From positions 1 through 9,240 of the forward strand of contig WAOY01000049.1 in assembly GCA_015520985.1 (NCBI GenBank): a stretch of DNA of 9,240 bases, written 5' to 3'. Position 1 is the stretch's first letter; each line of letters begins with the position of its first letter. Shown here one piece after another: positions 1,784-7,451 of the stretch. A program made the translations under genes and the position numbers. The notes below the pieces were generated by a model that worked only from the letters and a program-made list of their open reading frames with translations, was not told the DNA's origin and searched no databases. The DNA is from DHVE2 group archaeon. Its GTDB lineage: Archaea; Thermoplasmatota; Thermoplasmata; Thermoplasmatales; Aciduliprofundaceae.

Positions 1784-2898
1784 TGGCGATGCTGGACATA
1801 CTGGGAAACCTCGTGGGGATATTCGACCTCACCTGGGGAAACGTTGTTATGATAGCGGTGGGCTCCATATTCATTCTCCTGGGCATAAAGTACCGCATGG
1901 AGCCCCTTCTCCTGGTTCCCATTGGATTCAGTGCCATCATCGTTAACCTCCCGCTGAGCGGGATCACGGATGCCCCCCACGGATTCCTGTACCTGGTTTA
2001 CAAATACCTGATAAGCACGGAGATCGTCCCCCTGCTGATATTCCTCGGGATAGGCGCGATGACGGACTTTGAGCCCCTCCTGGCAGATCCAAAGACATTC
2101 CTCCTGGGAGCGGCGGCGCAGGTTGGCATATACTGCGCCCTTCTCTTTGCGCTGATATTCGGCTTCAATCTGCCAGAGGCAGCGGCCATAGGGATAATCG
2201 GCGGGGCGGATGGCCCGACGACAATATACACTGCCACCAAGCTTGCGCCGGAGATACTCGGCGCGGTCGCGGTTGCGGCGTATTCCTACATGTCCCTCGT
2301 ACCCATCATCCAGCCCCCGGTGATAAGGGCGCTCACCACGAAGAAGGAGAGGAGCGTCAGGATGGAGCCCCTGAGGAAGGTTAGCAAGAGGACGAAGATA
2401 CTGTTCCCCATAATAACCACCATCGTCGTCGGCCTCCTCGTGCCCACTGCGCTGCCCCTCATAGGCATGCTCATGTTCGGAAACCTCCTGCGGGAGTGCG
2501 GTGTAACGGAGAGATTGTCCAAGACCGCGCAGAACGAACTGATCAACATCGCCACCATATTCCTCGGGCTGGGCGTGGGCTACATGATGACCGCGGAGAT
2601 GTTCGTCCGCCTCGAGACCCTTGAGATAATGTTCCTCGGCGTCGTGGCCTTCGCCACCGCAACCGCCGGCGGCGTTCTCCTGGGGAAACTCTTCTACGTG
2701 CTCTCCAGGGGGAAGATAAACCCAATGATTGGCGCCGCAGGTGTCAGCGCTGTGCCCATGAGCGCCCGGGTGGTGCAGAAGATGGGGGCGAGGGAGGACC
2801 CGGAGAATTTCCTGCTGATGCACGCAATGGGCCCCAATGTGGCGGGAGTGATCGGCTCTGCAATCGCGGCTGGGGTTTTCATCGCCTACCTATTGTAA
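1783..2898 (+). CDS. mmdB: Sodium-pumping decarboxylase beta subunit (OadB/MmdB/GcdB family)
   Basis: 371 residues, strongly hydrophobic with many membrane helices. This subunit decarboxylates carboxybiotin and couples it to Na+ export. The residues I remember as functionally important in Klebsiella OadB (D203, Y229, N373, G377, S382, R389) all have counterparts at a constant offset of 60: D143 in GGADGPT, Y169 in AYSYM, and N313, G317, S322 and R329 in the NPMIG...GVSAVPMSAR block. This argues for an active pump with no internal insertion or deletion relative to OadB between those points. The protein lacks roughly 60 N-terminal residues compared with that enzyme, within the family's range. 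Start: ATG 1783 overlaps the previous TGA as TGATG; ATG 1789 is an alternative. Its stop codon lies inside a GTAACAC half-site described separately. Confidence 0.95.
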   Translation: MAMLDILGNLVGIFDLTWGNVVMIAVGSIFILLGIKYRMEPLLLVPIGFSAIIVNLPLSGITDAPHGFLYLVYKYLISTEIVPLLIFLGIGAMTDFEPLLADPKTFLLGAAAQVGIYCALLFALIFGFNLPEAAAIGIIGGADGPTTIYTATKLAPEILGAVAVAAYSYMSLVPIIQPPVIRALTTKKERSVRMEPLRKVSKRTKILFPIITTIVVGLLVPTALPLIGMLMFGNLLRECGVTERLSKTAQNELINIATIFLGLGVGYMMTAEMFVRLETLEIMFLGVVAFATATAGGVLLGKLFYVLSRGKINPMIGAAGVSAVPMSARVVQKMGAREDPENFLLMHAMGPNVAGVIGSAIAAGVFIAYLL

Positions 2899-2953
2899 CA
2901 CTAATTTAAAAATTCTTACTATTTTGTAACACAAATCTTTTTATTGGTGTTAC
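2895..2953. promoter_or_regulatory. Cluster of three GTAACAC/GTGTTAC half-sites, candidate operator for the small membrane protein genes
   Basis: GTAACAC occurs at 2895-2901 (overlapping the mmdB stop) and 2926-2932, and its reverse complement GTGTTAC at 2947-2953. Repeat starts are 31 and 21 bp apart, close to three and two helical turns, so all could be bound on one DNA face. The second and third copies flank a T-rich TATA-like element. The middle copy sits in the small dyad TTTGTAACACAAA. I recall GTGTTAC-N13/14-GTAACAC as a NikR box in some bacteria. Here the inverted pair has the same 14-bp gap, but the half-sites face the opposite way. With a nikR gene just downstream, NikR is the natural candidate; that assignment is inference. 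Confidence 0.55.
2938..2945 (+). promoter_or_regulatory. TATA-like element of the small membrane protein operon
   Basis: TTTTTATT lies between two half-sites in an otherwise AT-rich intergenic region (2899-2964). Transcription would start about 25 bases further on, near 2965-2970, leaving a short leader with GAGGTGA (2967-2973) before ATG 2979. The upstream TTTAAAAA at 2905-2912 is an alternative box. A regulator on the flanking half-sites would block TBP/TFB access. The T-rich tracts may also help end mmdB transcription. Confidence 0.45.
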
Positions 2954-2978
2954 GCAATACACCCATGAGGTGAGAAAG

Positions 2979-3320
2979 ATGGCATGCTTCCTGGTTCCCG
3001 GATCAGAGGGGGTCGTGGTGACCCTCCTGACGAAGGTCGTGGGAAAGGAGAGAGCGGAACGCCTGAAACTGAGGTGGCTCAGCGCCATGCTGTGGGGAGG
3101 CACGATACTCCTCGCCATAGAGCACATATGGCACGGCGAGGTTGTTCCCTGGCCCCCATTCCTGACGGCGATGGCAAATCCATCGGATACGGCGGCCATG
3201 CTGCACGAGATGGCGACCCACGGTACCCTCATGGCCTCATTGATCACACTGGTCTGGAGTGTTATGCTCTGGATGCACAACTCAACGGCGAAAAGCGACG
3301 CGAGGGCAGTGAGGGGATGA
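2979..3320 (+). CDS. Small three-helix membrane protein with Glu/His motifs, function unknown
   Basis: 113 residues from ATG 2979, chosen because AGGTGA at 2968-2973 is correctly spaced. Likely membrane segments are about residues 5-21, 36-50 and 80-99. The segment between the second and third helices holds the most striking residues: E48 H49 and H52 followed by G53 E54 (EHIWHGE), the run VVPWPPFL, and H76 E77 with H81 (HEMATHG). Together with C3 these could form a metal site; that is inference. I have an impression of similar conserved hypothetical proteins in other anaerobes but cannot confirm it. The next gene starts 6 bases after the stop and encodes a protein of the same architecture, so the two probably act together. 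The half-site cluster upstream and nikR downstream suggest nickel-linked expression. No known nickel transporter motif (for example NiCoT HX4DH) is seen. Confidence 0.8.
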   Translation: MACFLVPGSEGVVVTLLTKVVGKERAERLKLRWLSAMLWGGTILLAIEHIWHGEVVPWPPFLTAMANPSDTAAMLHEMATHGTLMASLITLVWSVMLWMHNSTAKSDARAVRG

Positions 3321-3326
3321 TGCCCC

Positions 3327-3626
3327 ATGTGGCTCCTGGTTATGCTCTTCCTGGCCATATTCTCCACCGCGGCCTGGTACATGTGGAGCAGGGGTGATGA
3401 GTACAGAATGGACGTACTGGCCCTCATTTCCTGGGGAACGGTGATAATGGTATTCGCGGATCACCTGATGGGCTACATAGAAGAGGGTGAATTCATGGAG
3501 ATGTCACTGGATGCTCTCGTGCTCGGCTTAACAATGGCTGCCACCGCCCTGCTCATCTGGCTCGCCGTTCTGCTGATAAGGGACCCCAAAGGAAAGATCA
3601 GGAAGATCACGGTTCCACGAGCGTGA
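3327..3626 (+). CDS. Second small three-helix membrane protein, partner of the preceding gene, function unknown
   Basis: 99 residues with three probable membrane helices (about 2-20, 30-48 and 62-84) and a short basic tail (KGKIRKI). An acidic-His pair, D45 H46 (FADHLMGY), lies at the end of helix 2, where the preceding protein has E48 H49. An acidic run, EEGE, follows it. The parallel layout suggests a heteromeric pair. The gene is in the same frame as its neighbour: only the TGA stop and two more codons separate the last sense codon from this ATG. A short GGGG-ATGATG-CCCC hairpin (3313-3326) lies directly before the start, and the GAGG at 3311 is rather far from it, so translation may be coupled to the upstream gene. 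The 3' end overlaps nikR by 20 bp, convergently. No function can be assigned. Confidence 0.78.
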   Translation: MWLLVMLFLAIFSTAAWYMWSRGDEYRMDVLALISWGTVIMVFADHLMGYIEEGEFMEMSLDALVLGLTMAATALLIWLAVLLIRDPKGKIRKITVPRA

Positions 3627-4014
3627 ACACGAACTTAACGTTCTTCACACCCTTTATTCCGGAAAGCTCGTCAACAAGTTTCCTCATTTTTTTCGCCTTT
3701 CCGTGAAATATGACCACCTCGAGGCAGTTCCTGCGGTCAACGTGCACATGCACCGCCGACCTTATCTCACCGTGGTACGCGTGCTGCACATGGGTTATCT
3801 TCTCGGTTATGCCCTTCACCTCGTGGTCGTATATCATGGTGATTGTCCCGAATACCTCACTGCCGGGGTCTGTGGATATGGTGTCCTCTATCAGGGCATC
3901 CCGTATCAGCATGCGGATGGCCTCGGACCTGCTCACGTAACCCCTCCTCTTGATGAACGCGTCGAACTTATCCAGGAGATCCCTGCTCATGGATACGCTG
4001 AACCTCTCGATCAT
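3607..4014 (-). CDS. nikR: Nickel-responsive transcriptional regulator, NikR family
   Basis: 135 residues. Residues 1-45 form the ribbon-helix-helix DNA-binding domain (FSVSMSRDLLDKFDAF...GYVSRSEAIRMLIRDAL). The rest is the ACT-like tetramerisation and nickel-binding domain. Aligned by eye with E. coli NikR (H76, H87, H89, C95), the ligands are H78, H89, H91 and C97, in VQHAYH and VHVHVDRRNCLE, so the high-affinity square-planar site is complete. Length matches the family. It should repress or activate genes in response to Ni2+. Ribosome-binding AGGAG is 11 bases upstream, somewhat far; a TATA-like box near 4040-4045 would give an almost leaderless mRNA. I see no GTAACAC site at its own promoter, so autoregulation is not evident. 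It converges on the small membrane protein pair, which has the candidate operator. Confidence 0.94.
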   Translation of the reverse strand: MIERFSVSMSRDLLDKFDAFIKRRGYVSRSEAIRMLIRDALIEDTISTDPGSEVFGTITMIYDHEVKGITEKITHVQHAYHGEIRSAVHVHVDRRNCLEVVIFHGKAKKMRKLVDELSGIKGVKNVKFVFTLVEP

Positions 4015-4766: not shown

Positions 4767-5549
4767 ATGAGTGGCGAGGATATTGGAGACCTCAGCATGC
4801 TGGATCAGGTACAGTCAATTCTGGCGAAGGTCAAGCAGGAAGCGGAAGAAGTGAAGAAGAAGCGTAAGGAACTGGAAGAGTTTGAGGCTTCTCTCAAGCA
4901 GAAGGAAGAGGAGATCCAGGAGAGGGAGAGGAAACTCCAGGAGAAGGAGAACTTCCTGGAGAAGAAGAGCGCTGAGCTCGAGGAGTACGCCAAGGAGATA
5001 GATAGGAAGAAGAGCGAACTTGACGCGAAGATGGAGGAGCTTAACAGGCGGGTAAACGCGCTCGTGGCAGCCGAGGCAGCCCTCAAGGAGTACGAGGAGA
5101 GCATCAAGGGGCTCAAGCAGGCCATGGAGGAGAAGATGAACTCCCTGCAGGAATTCGAGAAGTACGCCAAGGAGACCATAGAGTCCATGATCCAGAAGGA
5201 GAAGGAAGTCATCGAGCAGGGTCTCAACGTCGCTCAGCTGCAGACATCGCTCTCCGATCTCAAGGAGAGGATGTACCAGGCCATACAGGCCCTCACAGGC
5301 GAGATAACCATCGAGCCGGGCGCGGTGGAGAGGAAGGAAGAGGCTCCCGCGGAATCAGCTGCGGAGGCGAAGGAAGAGAAAAAAGAGGAGGAAACGAAGG
5401 AGGAGCAGGGAGGCCAAGAATTCGAGGTCGTGGTGGTGGACGGCGAGGAGTTCATCAAGTGCCCGCAGTGCGGCACCCTGAACTCCAAGGACGCCATAAT
5501 GTGCTACAACTGCGGCTTCGTTTTCAAGCCCGAGGAGCTCGGGGAGTGA
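4767..5549 (+). CDS. Coiled-coil protein with C-terminal zinc ribbon, function unknown
   Basis: 260 residues. Residues 13 to about 160 are almost unbroken charged heptad-like sequence rich in Lys, Glu, Leu and Gln (KQKEEEIQERERKLQEKENF), predicted to form a long parallel coiled coil. Residues 160-185 form a shorter helical stretch (LSDLKERMYQAIQALTG). A disordered Glu/Lys/Ala linker follows (about 190-218), then EFEVVVVDGEEFIKCPQCG. The ribbon uses C232, C235, C246 and C249 (CxxC-N10-CxxC). ATG 4767 is firmly set by GGAGGT at 4755-4760, the strongest ribosome-binding site in the window. No membrane segment or signal peptide, so cytoplasmic. The rod-plus-ribbon layout suggests an oligomeric scaffold that contacts nucleic acid or protein, but I do not recognise a characterised family. 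Coiled coils give false similarity to myosin- or SMC-like proteins, so such hits should not be trusted. Confidence 0.85.
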   Translation: MSGEDIGDLSMLDQVQSILAKVKQEAEEVKKKRKELEEFEASLKQKEEEIQERERKLQEKENFLEKKSAELEEYAKEIDRKKSELDAKMEELNRRVNALVAAEAALKEYEESIKGLKQAMEEKMNSLQEFEKYAKETIESMIQKEKEVIEQGLNVAQLQTSLSDLKERMYQAIQALTGEITIEPGAVERKEEAPAESAAEAKEEKKEEETKEEQGGQEFEVVVVDGEEFIKCPQCGTLNSKDAIMCYNCGFVFKPEELGE

Positions 5550-5590: not shown

Positions 5591-6739
5591 GTGAAAAAGA
5601 AGTTCGTGTACGGCGCTATTATACTCATACCGCTTCTCGGCGGCACGGCGGCCAGGCTTCTGCGCGTGATAATCGCCTTCACCCTCAGGGACCTCGGGGT
5701 GTCCGTCTTCGAGATAACCGTCCTTTCCGCCACGTACATGCTCACCCGTGCACTGTTTTCCCCGGTGGTGGGCCACTGGGCTGACAGGGGTGCGAAGAGG
5801 CACTTACTCGTCCTGATAGGGTTCCTGGGGCTCCTCGTGGACAGTCAGCTGTACTTGCTCCTCCCCTACTTCGGCATACTCGCGCTTCGCGCCCTGGACG
5901 GGTTCTTCGGTGCCATGGTTTGGCCCACGATGCAGGCGCTGGTGCACTTCTCCTCCCCAAAAAGCATGAGGGCGAGGATAATGAGCGGTTACTTCGTAAT
6001 GGGCTCCCTTGGGATGTCCCTTGGGTACCTCCTCTACTCCTACCTCGCCGGGGAGATCGTAAGGGCAATAGTGCTCCTGGCCATCGTATACGCCCTGGAG
6101 GTGGTTCTTTCGCTTGCATTCAGGGAAGTTAACGGCGAGGCGCAGGAGAGGAAAAAAGAGGCAAAAGATAGACTGGGGATCTCGCTTTTTTACCTGGCTC
6201 TATTCTTCGGTATGTACATGTCCCTGGGGAACGAGGTGCTGCTCTTCTACCTAGCCGAGACCATGGGCCTCGGAAGGGTATACGCAACGATGATCCTCTT
6301 CGCATCGGGCGTGGCTGCACTCCTAGGGAGCCTAGCCCTGGGCCAGGCCGCCGACAAAAGAGGGTTTCGCTTCTCCCTCATTCTCCTGGGCATTATGGCC
6401 CCCGTTGCTTCCCTCCTCATATCCGTGAACTACGTGCCCATCGCAATCGCGGGCACGGTGCTCTTCTTTGTGGCTGGAAGGGGATTCATGCCCATATCGC
6501 GAAGTTTCACCGCATCGGAGAGCAGGAAGATAGGGACCTCCCTCGGCTACGTGAACCTGGCCTCCAACATGGGCTCCGTCGTGGCGCTCCTCCTCGGGGG
6601 TGCCTTCCTGGATTACGCGGAGCACGTAACGATCGGAGTTTTCAACCTAGCCGCGGCTAGTTTCGTGGTGATAGGCGCCGCGATACTCGTCACCACTCTC
6701 TGGTTTGAGAGGCAATTCTTCCGAGGTAGTCCCGGATAA
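5591..6739 (+). CDS. Major facilitator superfamily transporter, substrate unknown
   Basis: 382 residues with about twelve membrane helices in two halves split by a charged cytoplasmic loop (about 176-193, REVNGEAQERKKEAKDR). The MFS motif A is clear in loop 2-3 (G61-H-W-A-D65-R-G-A-K-R70), and a degenerate copy (GQAADKRGFRF) lies at the matching place in the second half. Length is normal for a 12-helix MFS member. Arg22 and Arg25 in helix 1 are unusual charges in a membrane segment and might bind an anionic substrate or a proton; this is speculative. Drug or metabolite export is common for this type but cannot be assigned. GTG 5591 is the most plausible start: it begins with KKK, no ATG lies in frame nearby upstream, and a TATA-like box is 20 bases before. 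The gene runs 50 bp into the convergent phosphopantothenate synthetase gene. Confidence 0.9.
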   Translation: MKKKFVYGAIILIPLLGGTAARLLRVIIAFTLRDLGVSVFEITVLSATYMLTRALFSPVVGHWADRGAKRHLLVLIGFLGLLVDSQLYLLLPYFGILALRALDGFFGAMVWPTMQALVHFSSPKSMRARIMSGYFVMGSLGMSLGYLLYSYLAGEIVRAIVLLAIVYALEVVLSLAFREVNGEAQERKKEAKDRLGISLFYLALFFGMYMSLGNEVLLFYLAETMGLGRVYATMILFASGVAALLGSLALGQAADKRGFRFSLILLGIMAPVASLLISVNYVPIAIAGTVLFFVAGRGFMPISRSFTASESRKIGTSLGYVNLASNMGSVVALLLGGAFLDYAEHVTIGVFNLAAASFVVIGAAILVTTLWFERQFFRGSPG

Positions 6740-7451
6740 AGAGTATGGCCTCCGATAGAACGGCACCGTTGTCGTACCCGTCAAGAATTTTCCGCGCTTC
6801 CTCCCTGCTCATCTCCGATGCAATCTCCCTCATGTTCCTCAGGGCCCTGGTTATCTCGTCCACCACGGTTACGTCGGCGGTCCTGGCGGTCCTGGACAGC
6901 GGGTTGAGGTCCACGGTCACCACGAACTTCCCCATGTCCCTTAGGGCCTTCGTCCTGTCACCGTCCTCCAAAGGAACGAGGACAACGTCGGCGGAGAATA
7001 TGCCCTCTGACGTGCACAGGGCCCTGGCGTGGTCAAGTCCCGGTATTCGGGCATCCGGATTCTCTCCCAGCACCTCAACGCCCCGGGACCTGAAGAGATC
7101 CGCGATCCTCCTAACCCTATCCTCGGTGCGGTAGAACAGGTTCACCTCTATCTTCATGCCCAGCGCCTCTGCGAGGGATATCACATCGTCAACGGCGAGG
7201 GCGGCCACGTTGCCATTTACGGAAAAAACCGGGTTCTCCGCAAGCATTATGGCTGCCACGGCAGCCTTCTCCGCCTTCAGACCGAACTCACGCGTCTTCT
7301 CACCGATGAGGTAATCGAAGGCCTCGCCACGTCCATGGGCTATGAGCCCAGCGTGGGCAACGATGCCCTTTTTGAATCCCTCTATGATCCTCTCCCTCTT
7401 CAGAAGAGACTGGTACCTGGGATGGCTCGGGGGAATGCTGAACCCGGACAT
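6690..7451 (-). CDS. 4-phosphopantoate--beta-alanine ligase (archaeal phosphopantothenate synthetase)
   Basis: 253 residues, the usual length for the archaeal COG1701 family. It joins 4-phosphopantoate to beta-alanine with ATP, giving 4-phosphopantothenate for coenzyme A; archaea use it with pantoate kinase in place of the bacterial PanC/PanK route. Family blocks are plain: IPPSHPRYQSL (6-16), GLIAHGRGEAFDYLIGE (35-51), NPVFSVNGNVAAL (73-85), and the central IEVNLFYRTEDR with LVPLEDGDRTKAL. Pantoate kinase, often a neighbour, is not in this window. The gene follows the DHH nuclease gene by 14 bases and is probably co-transcribed. Its ATG lacks a clear Shine-Dalgarno sequence, but the SHPRY block so close to the N-terminus fits this start. 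Its last 50 bases overlap the transporter gene tail to tail. Confidence 0.93.
   Translation of the reverse strand: MSGFSIPPSHPRYQSLLKRERIIEGFKKGIVAHAGLIAHGRGEAFDYLIGEKTREFGLKAEKAAVAAIMLAENPVFSVNGNVAALAVDDVISLAEALGMKIEVNLFYRTEDRVRRIADLFRSRGVEVLGENPDARIPGLDHARALCTSEGIFSADVVLVPLEDGDRTKALRDMGKFVVTVDLNPLSRTARTADVTVVDEITRALRNMREIASEMSREEARKILDGYDNGAVLSEAILFIRDYLGRIASQTREW

Follow-up and report, generated by a model that had tools for sequence, protein, structure and literature searches.

Two small membrane proteins encoded beside nikR as a candidate NikR-repressed nickel importer in archaea

The window analyzed here is the whole stretch of 9,240 nt, positions 1 to 9,240 of contig WAOY01000049.1 (assembly GCA_015520985.1, DHVE2 group archaeon, family Aciduliprofundaceae). 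It carries an oad operon, then two genes encoding small membrane proteins, P1 and P2, and then nikR on the opposite strand. A first-pass annotation, made from the letters alone, had combined nikR, the two membrane-protein genes and a cluster of half-sites upstream of them into a candidate nickel-responsive module; our analysis confirms that this combination is real, and suggests that P1-P2 import nickel. The features are as follows.

2895-2901, plus strand: half-site GTAACAC, exact match, overlapping the oadB stop codon
2926-2953, no strand assigned: everted candidate NikR box GTAACAC-N14-GTGTTAC, formed by half-sites 2 (2926) and 3 (2947)
2933-2946, plus strand: A/T-rich spacer AAATCTTTTTATTG, the probable site of a TATA element
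2979-3320, plus strand: P1, 113 amino acids (aa), three main predicted helices, N-terminal Met-Ala-Cys, residues E48, H49, H52, E54 and E77
3327-3626, plus strand: P2, 99 aa, three predicted membrane helices and a short C-terminal helix, D45 invariant
3607-4014, minus strand: nikR, by homology a nickel-responsive ribbon-helix-helix (RHH) repressor (PF08753, 1.9e-29; PF01402, 1.5e-8)
3-2898: oad operon of a biotin-dependent sodium-pump decarboxylase (carboxyltransferase part, oadG-like, biotin carrier, oadB), assigned by profile matches, the carboxyltransferase part by eye

The nikR product scores well above the Pfam gathering thresholds (NikR_C, 102.1 bits against 22; RHH_1, 34.7 against 20.5) and matches the NCBIfam equivalog NF003381 (156.5 bits, cut-off 105), while its score against TIGR02793 is below the cut-off (101.1 against 175.45). 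When aligned to NikR from P. horikoshii, it has His78, His89, His91 and Cys97, which we take to be the nickel ligands; all four had already been noticed. The gene is convergent to the small membrane-protein genes, as described earlier, and overlaps P2 by 20 bp.

The heptamer GTAACAC/GTGTTAC occurs three times in the whole window, against 0.38 expected, and all copies are located within 2895-2953; the three exact copies before the membrane-protein genes, at 2895, 2926 and 2947, are thus those seen in the first pass. With dinucleotide shuffling, 2 of 200 versions of the window reach this number; with mononucleotide shuffling of 2891-2978, none of 200000 does. In the whole assembly, the pair at 2926-2953 is the sole everted N14 fit with fewer than two mismatches. 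The second-best everted pair of this genome (L002, G000:C86:3946-3973) has two mismatches and fits GTRNYAC twice; it may be due to chance.

PMC545781 gives the delta-proteobacterial NikR box, itself predicted, as GTGTTAC-N13/14-GTAACAC. As the half-sites are the same, the first-pass view of this motif as a bacterial NikR box was right, and the distance of 14 bp at 2926-2953 falls within the 13-14 bp of these boxes, but the half-site order in the window is everted relative to the usual one. This order has a precedent, since in Desulfotalea psychrophila reversed GTAACAC-N13-GTGTTAC boxes precede nikMLKQO and an unassigned two-gene cluster, 422176-177 (PMC545781, Table 4).

Conservation of the sites upstream of orthologous genes, proposed earlier as a check, was observed in archaea. 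We fetched 80 of the 431 confirmed loci of P1 relatives in the GTDB genome collection and 30 loci from a phylum sample of 243 genomes. After deduplication, 90 loci were scored, comprising 32 archaeal ones from the GTDB collection, 13 archaeal ones from the phylum sample, and 45 bacterial ones. Frame extension and deduplication removed L021 and L044 from the 34 archaeal loci of the GTDB collection and L064 from the 46 bacterial ones (L021, truncated by the contig end, carries an exact box with nikR adjoining; L044 has no box), and none of L097-L113 was left after deduplication against the GTDB-collection loci. A box was accepted with at most 2 mismatches in 14 positions, a spacer of 13 or 14, either orientation, and a distance of at most 150 nt upstream, the mismatch limit and the 150-nt window having been set after a first look at the loci. 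Such boxes precede the homologous genes in 25 of 45 archaeal loci (17/32 in the GTDB collection and 8/13 in the phylum sample), which are not phylogenetically independent, and in one of 45 bacterial loci. The background is 1 in 1183 random windows from archaeal loci and 2 in 2250 shuffled upstream regions. The sole bacterial locus with a box, L070 from Elusimicrobia, also has nikR adjoining P1.

The spacing is fixed. Everted boxes with spacers of 13 and 14 number 11 and 6, respectively, in the GTDB-collection archaea, and 7 boxes with N13 were found in the phylum sample, while the remaining spacers between 6 and 22 each yield no or one box per orientation and group. The consensus of 24 everted boxes, including the one in the window, is GTARCAC-N13/14-KTGYTAC, with the spacer on average 89% A+T. 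The half-site fits GTRNYAC, which in outline is its own complement; this near-palindromic structure may account for the occurrence of both everted and inverted orders, the latter seen in L070, L088 and L118. Inverted GTATTAC-N13 pairs are also located downstream of P2-P1, before the next gene cluster, in L128 (5006-5032) and L129 (5879-5905).

P1 has 4862 relatives in the protein database at E<=1e-3, and its confirmed loci in the GTDB collection come from archaea, Bacillota, Chloroflexota and Elusimicrobia. P1 matches no Pfam or NCBIfam family, and P2 has no Pfam match above the cut-off and no NCBIfam match. Neither protein matches CbiM (PF01891) or NiCoT/NicO (PF03824), so that they could not be assigned to the NikMNQO/CbiM S-components or to the NiCoT/NicO family. 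AlphaFold2 models show three main helices in P1 (predicted local distance difference test, pLDDT, 79.7; predicted template modeling score, pTM, 0.56), and three helices with a short additional one in P2 (pLDDT 90.3, pTM 0.77); no solved relative of either protein was found. The profiles of P1 and P2 match each other over 79 columns (hhalign, probability 90, E 1.7e-6), and therefore the two are likely distant paralogs.

The better start of P1 is ATG at 2979 (MACF...), rather than GTG at 2970; as the homologs begin with MACF, the length is 113 residues and not 116, as originally annotated. Among 90 homologs, whose starts were picked by a script searching around the position of the query start, 86 have the N-terminus MACF, 2 MGCF, 1 LACF and 1 MACV. 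In a second alignment of 120 rows, MACF is found in 112 and MGCF in 4, with Cys-Phe located further in in 3 and no N-terminal Cys-Phe in 1. One run took in 17 of 120 matches and another 119 of 120, while a third took in 68 of 89 P2 sequences together with 9 of 11 matches. Cys3, Glu48, His49, His52, Glu77 and Trp93 are invariant in all 91 P1 sequences, the window included, and Glu54 is present in 90 of them; Trp36, Asp45 and Trp78 are invariant in 90/90 P2. His46 of P2 is retained in archaea (28/32 in the GTDB collection, 13/13 in the phylum sample). The acidic-His pair reported at the end of helix 2 of both proteins is there (E48-H49 in P1, D45-H46 in P2, the helices being predicted). Both peptides highlighted in P1, EHIWHGE and HEMATHG, are likewise present, but the first His of the latter (His76) is kept in 65/91 sequences only.

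Some JGI records name P1 relatives (P0098, P0099, P0107, P0113, P0119) "polyferredoxin" or "nitrate reductase gamma subunit", with no visible evidence for these names. In Eubacterium/Lachnospira eligens and Ruminococcus albus, large plasmids (NC_012780.1, NZ_CP085937.1, NC_014825.1) also encode relatives annotated as hypothetical.

According to tblastn, P1 and P2 occur together in 77 of the 80 GTDB-collection loci. Two of the remaining three (L021 and L064) end just beyond P1; in the third, L089, a diverged P2 is encoded directly downstream. Since the two genes are found as P1-P2, as P2-P1 and in divergent arrangement, a partnership of the two proteins is favored.

In the phylum sample, P1 was found in 52 genomes and NikR_C in 168; NikR_C is present in 46 of the 52 P1-bearing genomes, compared to 122/191 of the others (p=6e-4, uncorrected for kinship), and at least 22 of the 52 have nikR no further than 1 kb from P1. 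The arrangement varies. nikR is convergent downstream in the window and in L017-L020, divergent upstream in L022, L026, L036, L038, L039 and L041, and divergent upstream of the order P2-P1 in L115, L117, L119, L120, L122 and L123; in two Elusimicrobia (L067 and L070) it is upstream on the same strand.

The window's own family provides a comparison of genomes with and without P1. G034 and G068 (99% complete) have nikR and CbiM and no P1, while in G198 and the genome of the window P1 occurs together with nikR and CbiM has no match; G227, from the same genus, has no match to nikR, P1 or CbiM, and its hydrogenase match is weak. The assembly of the window is fragmentary (239 contigs, 79.75% complete), and within it neither CbiM nor NicO has a match. 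A profile search of the window proteins also revealed no nickel transporter family, as already remarked in the first pass, and there is no CbiQ/ATP-binding cassette (ABC) module beside P1-P2 to which the pair could be assigned.

In G034, the stretch L131 retains ten window genes, collinear on both flanks, with 31-90% identity: the carboxyltransferase, oadG-like, biotin-carrier, oadB, nikR, phosphoesterase, coiled-coil, 6690-7451, recJ-like and S15 genes, with the major facilitator superfamily gene missing. Between oadB and nikR, P1-P2 are replaced there by CbiM (1e-62), PDGLE (6.5e-8), CbiQ (4.9e-37) and ABC_tran (8.8e-30), and a half-site pair, GTATCAC-N14-GTAACAC, is located one base upstream of the nikM start codon. 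Among six CbiM loci from genomes lacking P1, pairs are found just upstream of cbiM in L131, L134 and L135; from nikR and the box, we infer that these cassettes carry nickel.

In the phylum sample, P1 follows NiFe hydrogenase. A NiFe-hydrogenase match (E<1e-9, a limit chosen after many weak-only matches had appeared) is present in 51 of the 52 genomes with P1 and in 76 of the 191 others (p=3.6e-16; here and below, the sampled genomes are not phylogenetically independent). Among these 127 hydrogenase genomes, CbiM is found in 9/51 with P1, compared to 28/76 without it (p=0.028). When families f4-f8 are set apart, a split made after the fact, the remaining 91 genomes include none with both P1 and CbiM, 41 with P1 alone, 10 with CbiM alone and 40 with neither (p=0.0018). 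NicO was identified in 13 of the 243 genomes and in none of the 52 with P1.

Genes adjoining the pair elsewhere include those for HycI (hydrogenase maturation protease) and HypC, divergent from P1-P2 in L023 (432-1928), where no nikR and no good box are seen, a CobW/HypB/UreG-family gene (L042), and HycI with NiFe hydrogenase (L092). In the bacterial locus L077 the neighborhood includes genes resembling those of complex I or energy-converting hydrogenases. In L127 (3933-7931), two cbiM-family genes come after P2-P1, and the product of the second (606 aa) matches CbiM, CbiN and CbiQ. In L051 (4753-8716, Dehalococcoidia), the pair follows a ZnuA/ABC/ABC-3 cluster and a methyltransferase-like gene (assigned by eye), which may mean another metal or shared control.

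The best explanation, to which we assign a probability of roughly 0.7, is that P1 and P2 are paralogs that together make up a small nickel importer, repressed by NikR and standing in for NikMNQO; such an importer would likely be ATP-independent. Of the three roles initially suggested for the pair (permease, binding accessory or metal-stress protein), the permease is favored, both by the exchange with a NikMNQO-type cassette in one relative and by the scarcity of CbiQ discussed below.

We infer nickel as the substrate and import as its direction. A nickel-loaded NikR tetramer would bind 2926-2953, one RHH dimer per half-site, and the bound protein would block a promoter whose A/T-rich element sits in the spacer, so that repression would occur when nickel is plentiful. 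P1 and P2, with three helices each, would form a hetero-oligomer lacking an ATPase. The initiator Met of P1 is predicted to be removed, because the second residue is Ala or Gly, leaving Ala-Cys with Cys as residue 2. NikM and CbiM bind the substrate metal with their first two residues (PMC6828968). Nickel superoxide dismutase, for its part, uses its N-terminal amine and Cys2. By analogy with both, we propose as a hypothesis that the amine, amide and thiolate of Ala-Cys could serve as an N-terminal hook capturing Ni(II), which might then enter the cell by way of E48, H49, H52 and E77 in P1 and D45 in P2.

Several observations weigh against this explanation. The exchange of P1-P2 for a cassette has been seen in one genome only; in G068 (L130), nikR adjoins a similar cassette, but the flanks differ and no half-site pair was found, and at the chosen stringency three of the six CbiM loci (L130, L132 and L137) have none. 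At the same stringency, 20 of 45 archaeal P1 loci (for example, L020, L023, L030 and L042) lack a box, and 6 of the 52 P1-bearing genomes lack a NikR_C match. Within f4-f8 there is no exclusion (P1 with CbiM in 9 hydrogenase genomes, P1 alone in 1, CbiM alone in 18, neither in 8; p=0.39), one of the nine CbiM being a fragment (G165). The 40 hydrogenase genomes outside f4-f8 with neither P1 nor CbiM imply that other nickel routes exist. In bacteria, His46 of P2 is replaced by Ala in 29 of 44 sequences. Of the genomes of 15/46 bacterial and 5/34 archaeal loci in which hydrogenases were sought, the 15 bacterial ones have a match at E<1e-9 in 9, a weak one in 1 and none in 5; in these five, Lar_N (LarA) has a strong match in 2, a weak one in 1 and none in 2. 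The expected co-occurrence of the pair with nikR or with the sites holds in many archaea, but in 43 of 45 bacterial loci a distance of 2.5 kb around the pair contains no nikR (it is near in the other two). For this reason, NikR control appears to be mainly an archaeal feature of the P1-P2 family, and in bacteria the pair is possibly under other regulation or serves another metal.

Among the alternatives, the one faring best, though unlikely, is that P1-P2 are not a permease by themselves but a substrate-binding or assembly accessory of another transporter, such as an energy-coupling factor (ECF) module. NikN, NikL and NikK are thought to act as accessories of this kind. The position of P2-P1 directly upstream of the cbiM-family genes in G122 (L127), the presence of CbiM in 9 of the 10 hydrogenase-bearing P1 genomes of f4-f8 (a further point against our explanation), and the location of the pair after a ZnuABC-like cluster in L051 and after similar-looking genes in L060 would all suit this role. 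However, CbiQ has no match in 18 of the 22 genomes tested out of the 43 with P1 and no CbiM, and therefore P1-P2 do not in general serve as accessories of an ECF module or depend on one. The four with a match are G138, G198, and, with weaker scores, G012 and the window's own genome (G000), where it lies on another contig (C215, 4.2e-11). Moreover, the pair occupies the slot of a whole cassette in a relative from the window's family, and the partner of an accessory would have to be both unlinked and unknown.

It is less probable again that P1-P2 are a nickel exporter, a metal-stress protein, a membrane nickel store or a hydrogenase-maturation chaperone under NikR. The invariant His, Glu and Cys residues suit metal binding in general, and the maturation genes in L023, L042 and L092 agree with such functions. 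On the other hand, NikR is described as an inhibitor of import genes in excess nickel (PMC7055735), and therefore an exporter under its control would be off when needed; the exchange of slots also involves a cassette of the importer type. A similarly improbable explanation, that the NikR homolog and the pair are dedicated to a different metal, for instance zinc or cobalt, could draw on a NikR homolog beside ZnuABC in Methanothermobacter suggested to be zinc-responsive (PMC3087415), on the ZnuABC-like neighbors in L051 and on the cobalt carriers within the CbiM family, but the window NikR keeps four candidate nickel ligands and P1 tracks NiFe hydrogenase.

If P1-P2 are a nickel importer, they may represent a new superfamily of ATP-independent nickel permeases, built from two paralogous three-helix subunits with a processed Ala-Cys hook, found in anaerobic archaea and bacteria, and constituting the missing nickel route in many archaea that have hydrogenase but neither NikMNQO nor NiCoT; we consider this broader proposal tentative, its chances being somewhat short of even. 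A 2009 survey of nickel and cobalt use found no more than three families of transporters in archaea (PMC2667541). Nickel transport by the pair, if true, would explain the nickel supply of archaea with NiFe hydrogenase and neither NikMNQO nor NiCoT (41 genomes in our sample), give a function to a widespread protein pair that has no name, provide a minimal system for studies of metal selectivity, and hint at the possible nature of the NikR target left unassigned in 2004. No report of P1-P2 as a nickel transporter was found in the open-access literature, and no open-access paper was found to contain any of five P1 peptide motifs.

Outside the module, the biotin carrier of the oad operon resembles the gamma subunit of methylmalonyl-CoA decarboxylase with a score below the cut-off, and the sodium-pump decarboxylase operon is retained adjoining the nikR slot in L131 and L140. 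The gene at 4767-5549 encodes a coiled-coil protein with a C-terminal CPQCGT...CYNCGF motif, zinc-ribbon-like by eye; its order is kept in L017 (79%) and L131 (41%).

Three known systems are closest to the one proposed here. NiCoT/NicO permeases take up nickel without an ATPase and have an acidic-His motif in helix 2; P1-P2 would share the former feature and have the acidic-His pair at the end of predicted helix 2, but they do not match PF03824 and have three helices each. NikMNQO (CbiM/PDGLE/CbiQ/ABC, a group I ECF transporter) shares with the pair the slot by nikR in one relative, with half-sites at the nikM start, and, if our proposal for P1 is correct, metal binding by the N-terminal residues (PMC6828968); unlike it, P1-P2 have no CbiM match and no adjoining ATPase or CbiQ, and are two three-helix proteins rather than four subunits. 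Finally, the NikR regulon of Desulfotalea (nikMLKQO and 422176-177), as given in PMC545781, has the same half-sites in the same everted order and includes an uncharacterized two-gene cluster, while its spacer is 13 nt, compared to 14 nt here, and the box described here precedes P1-P2 in archaea.

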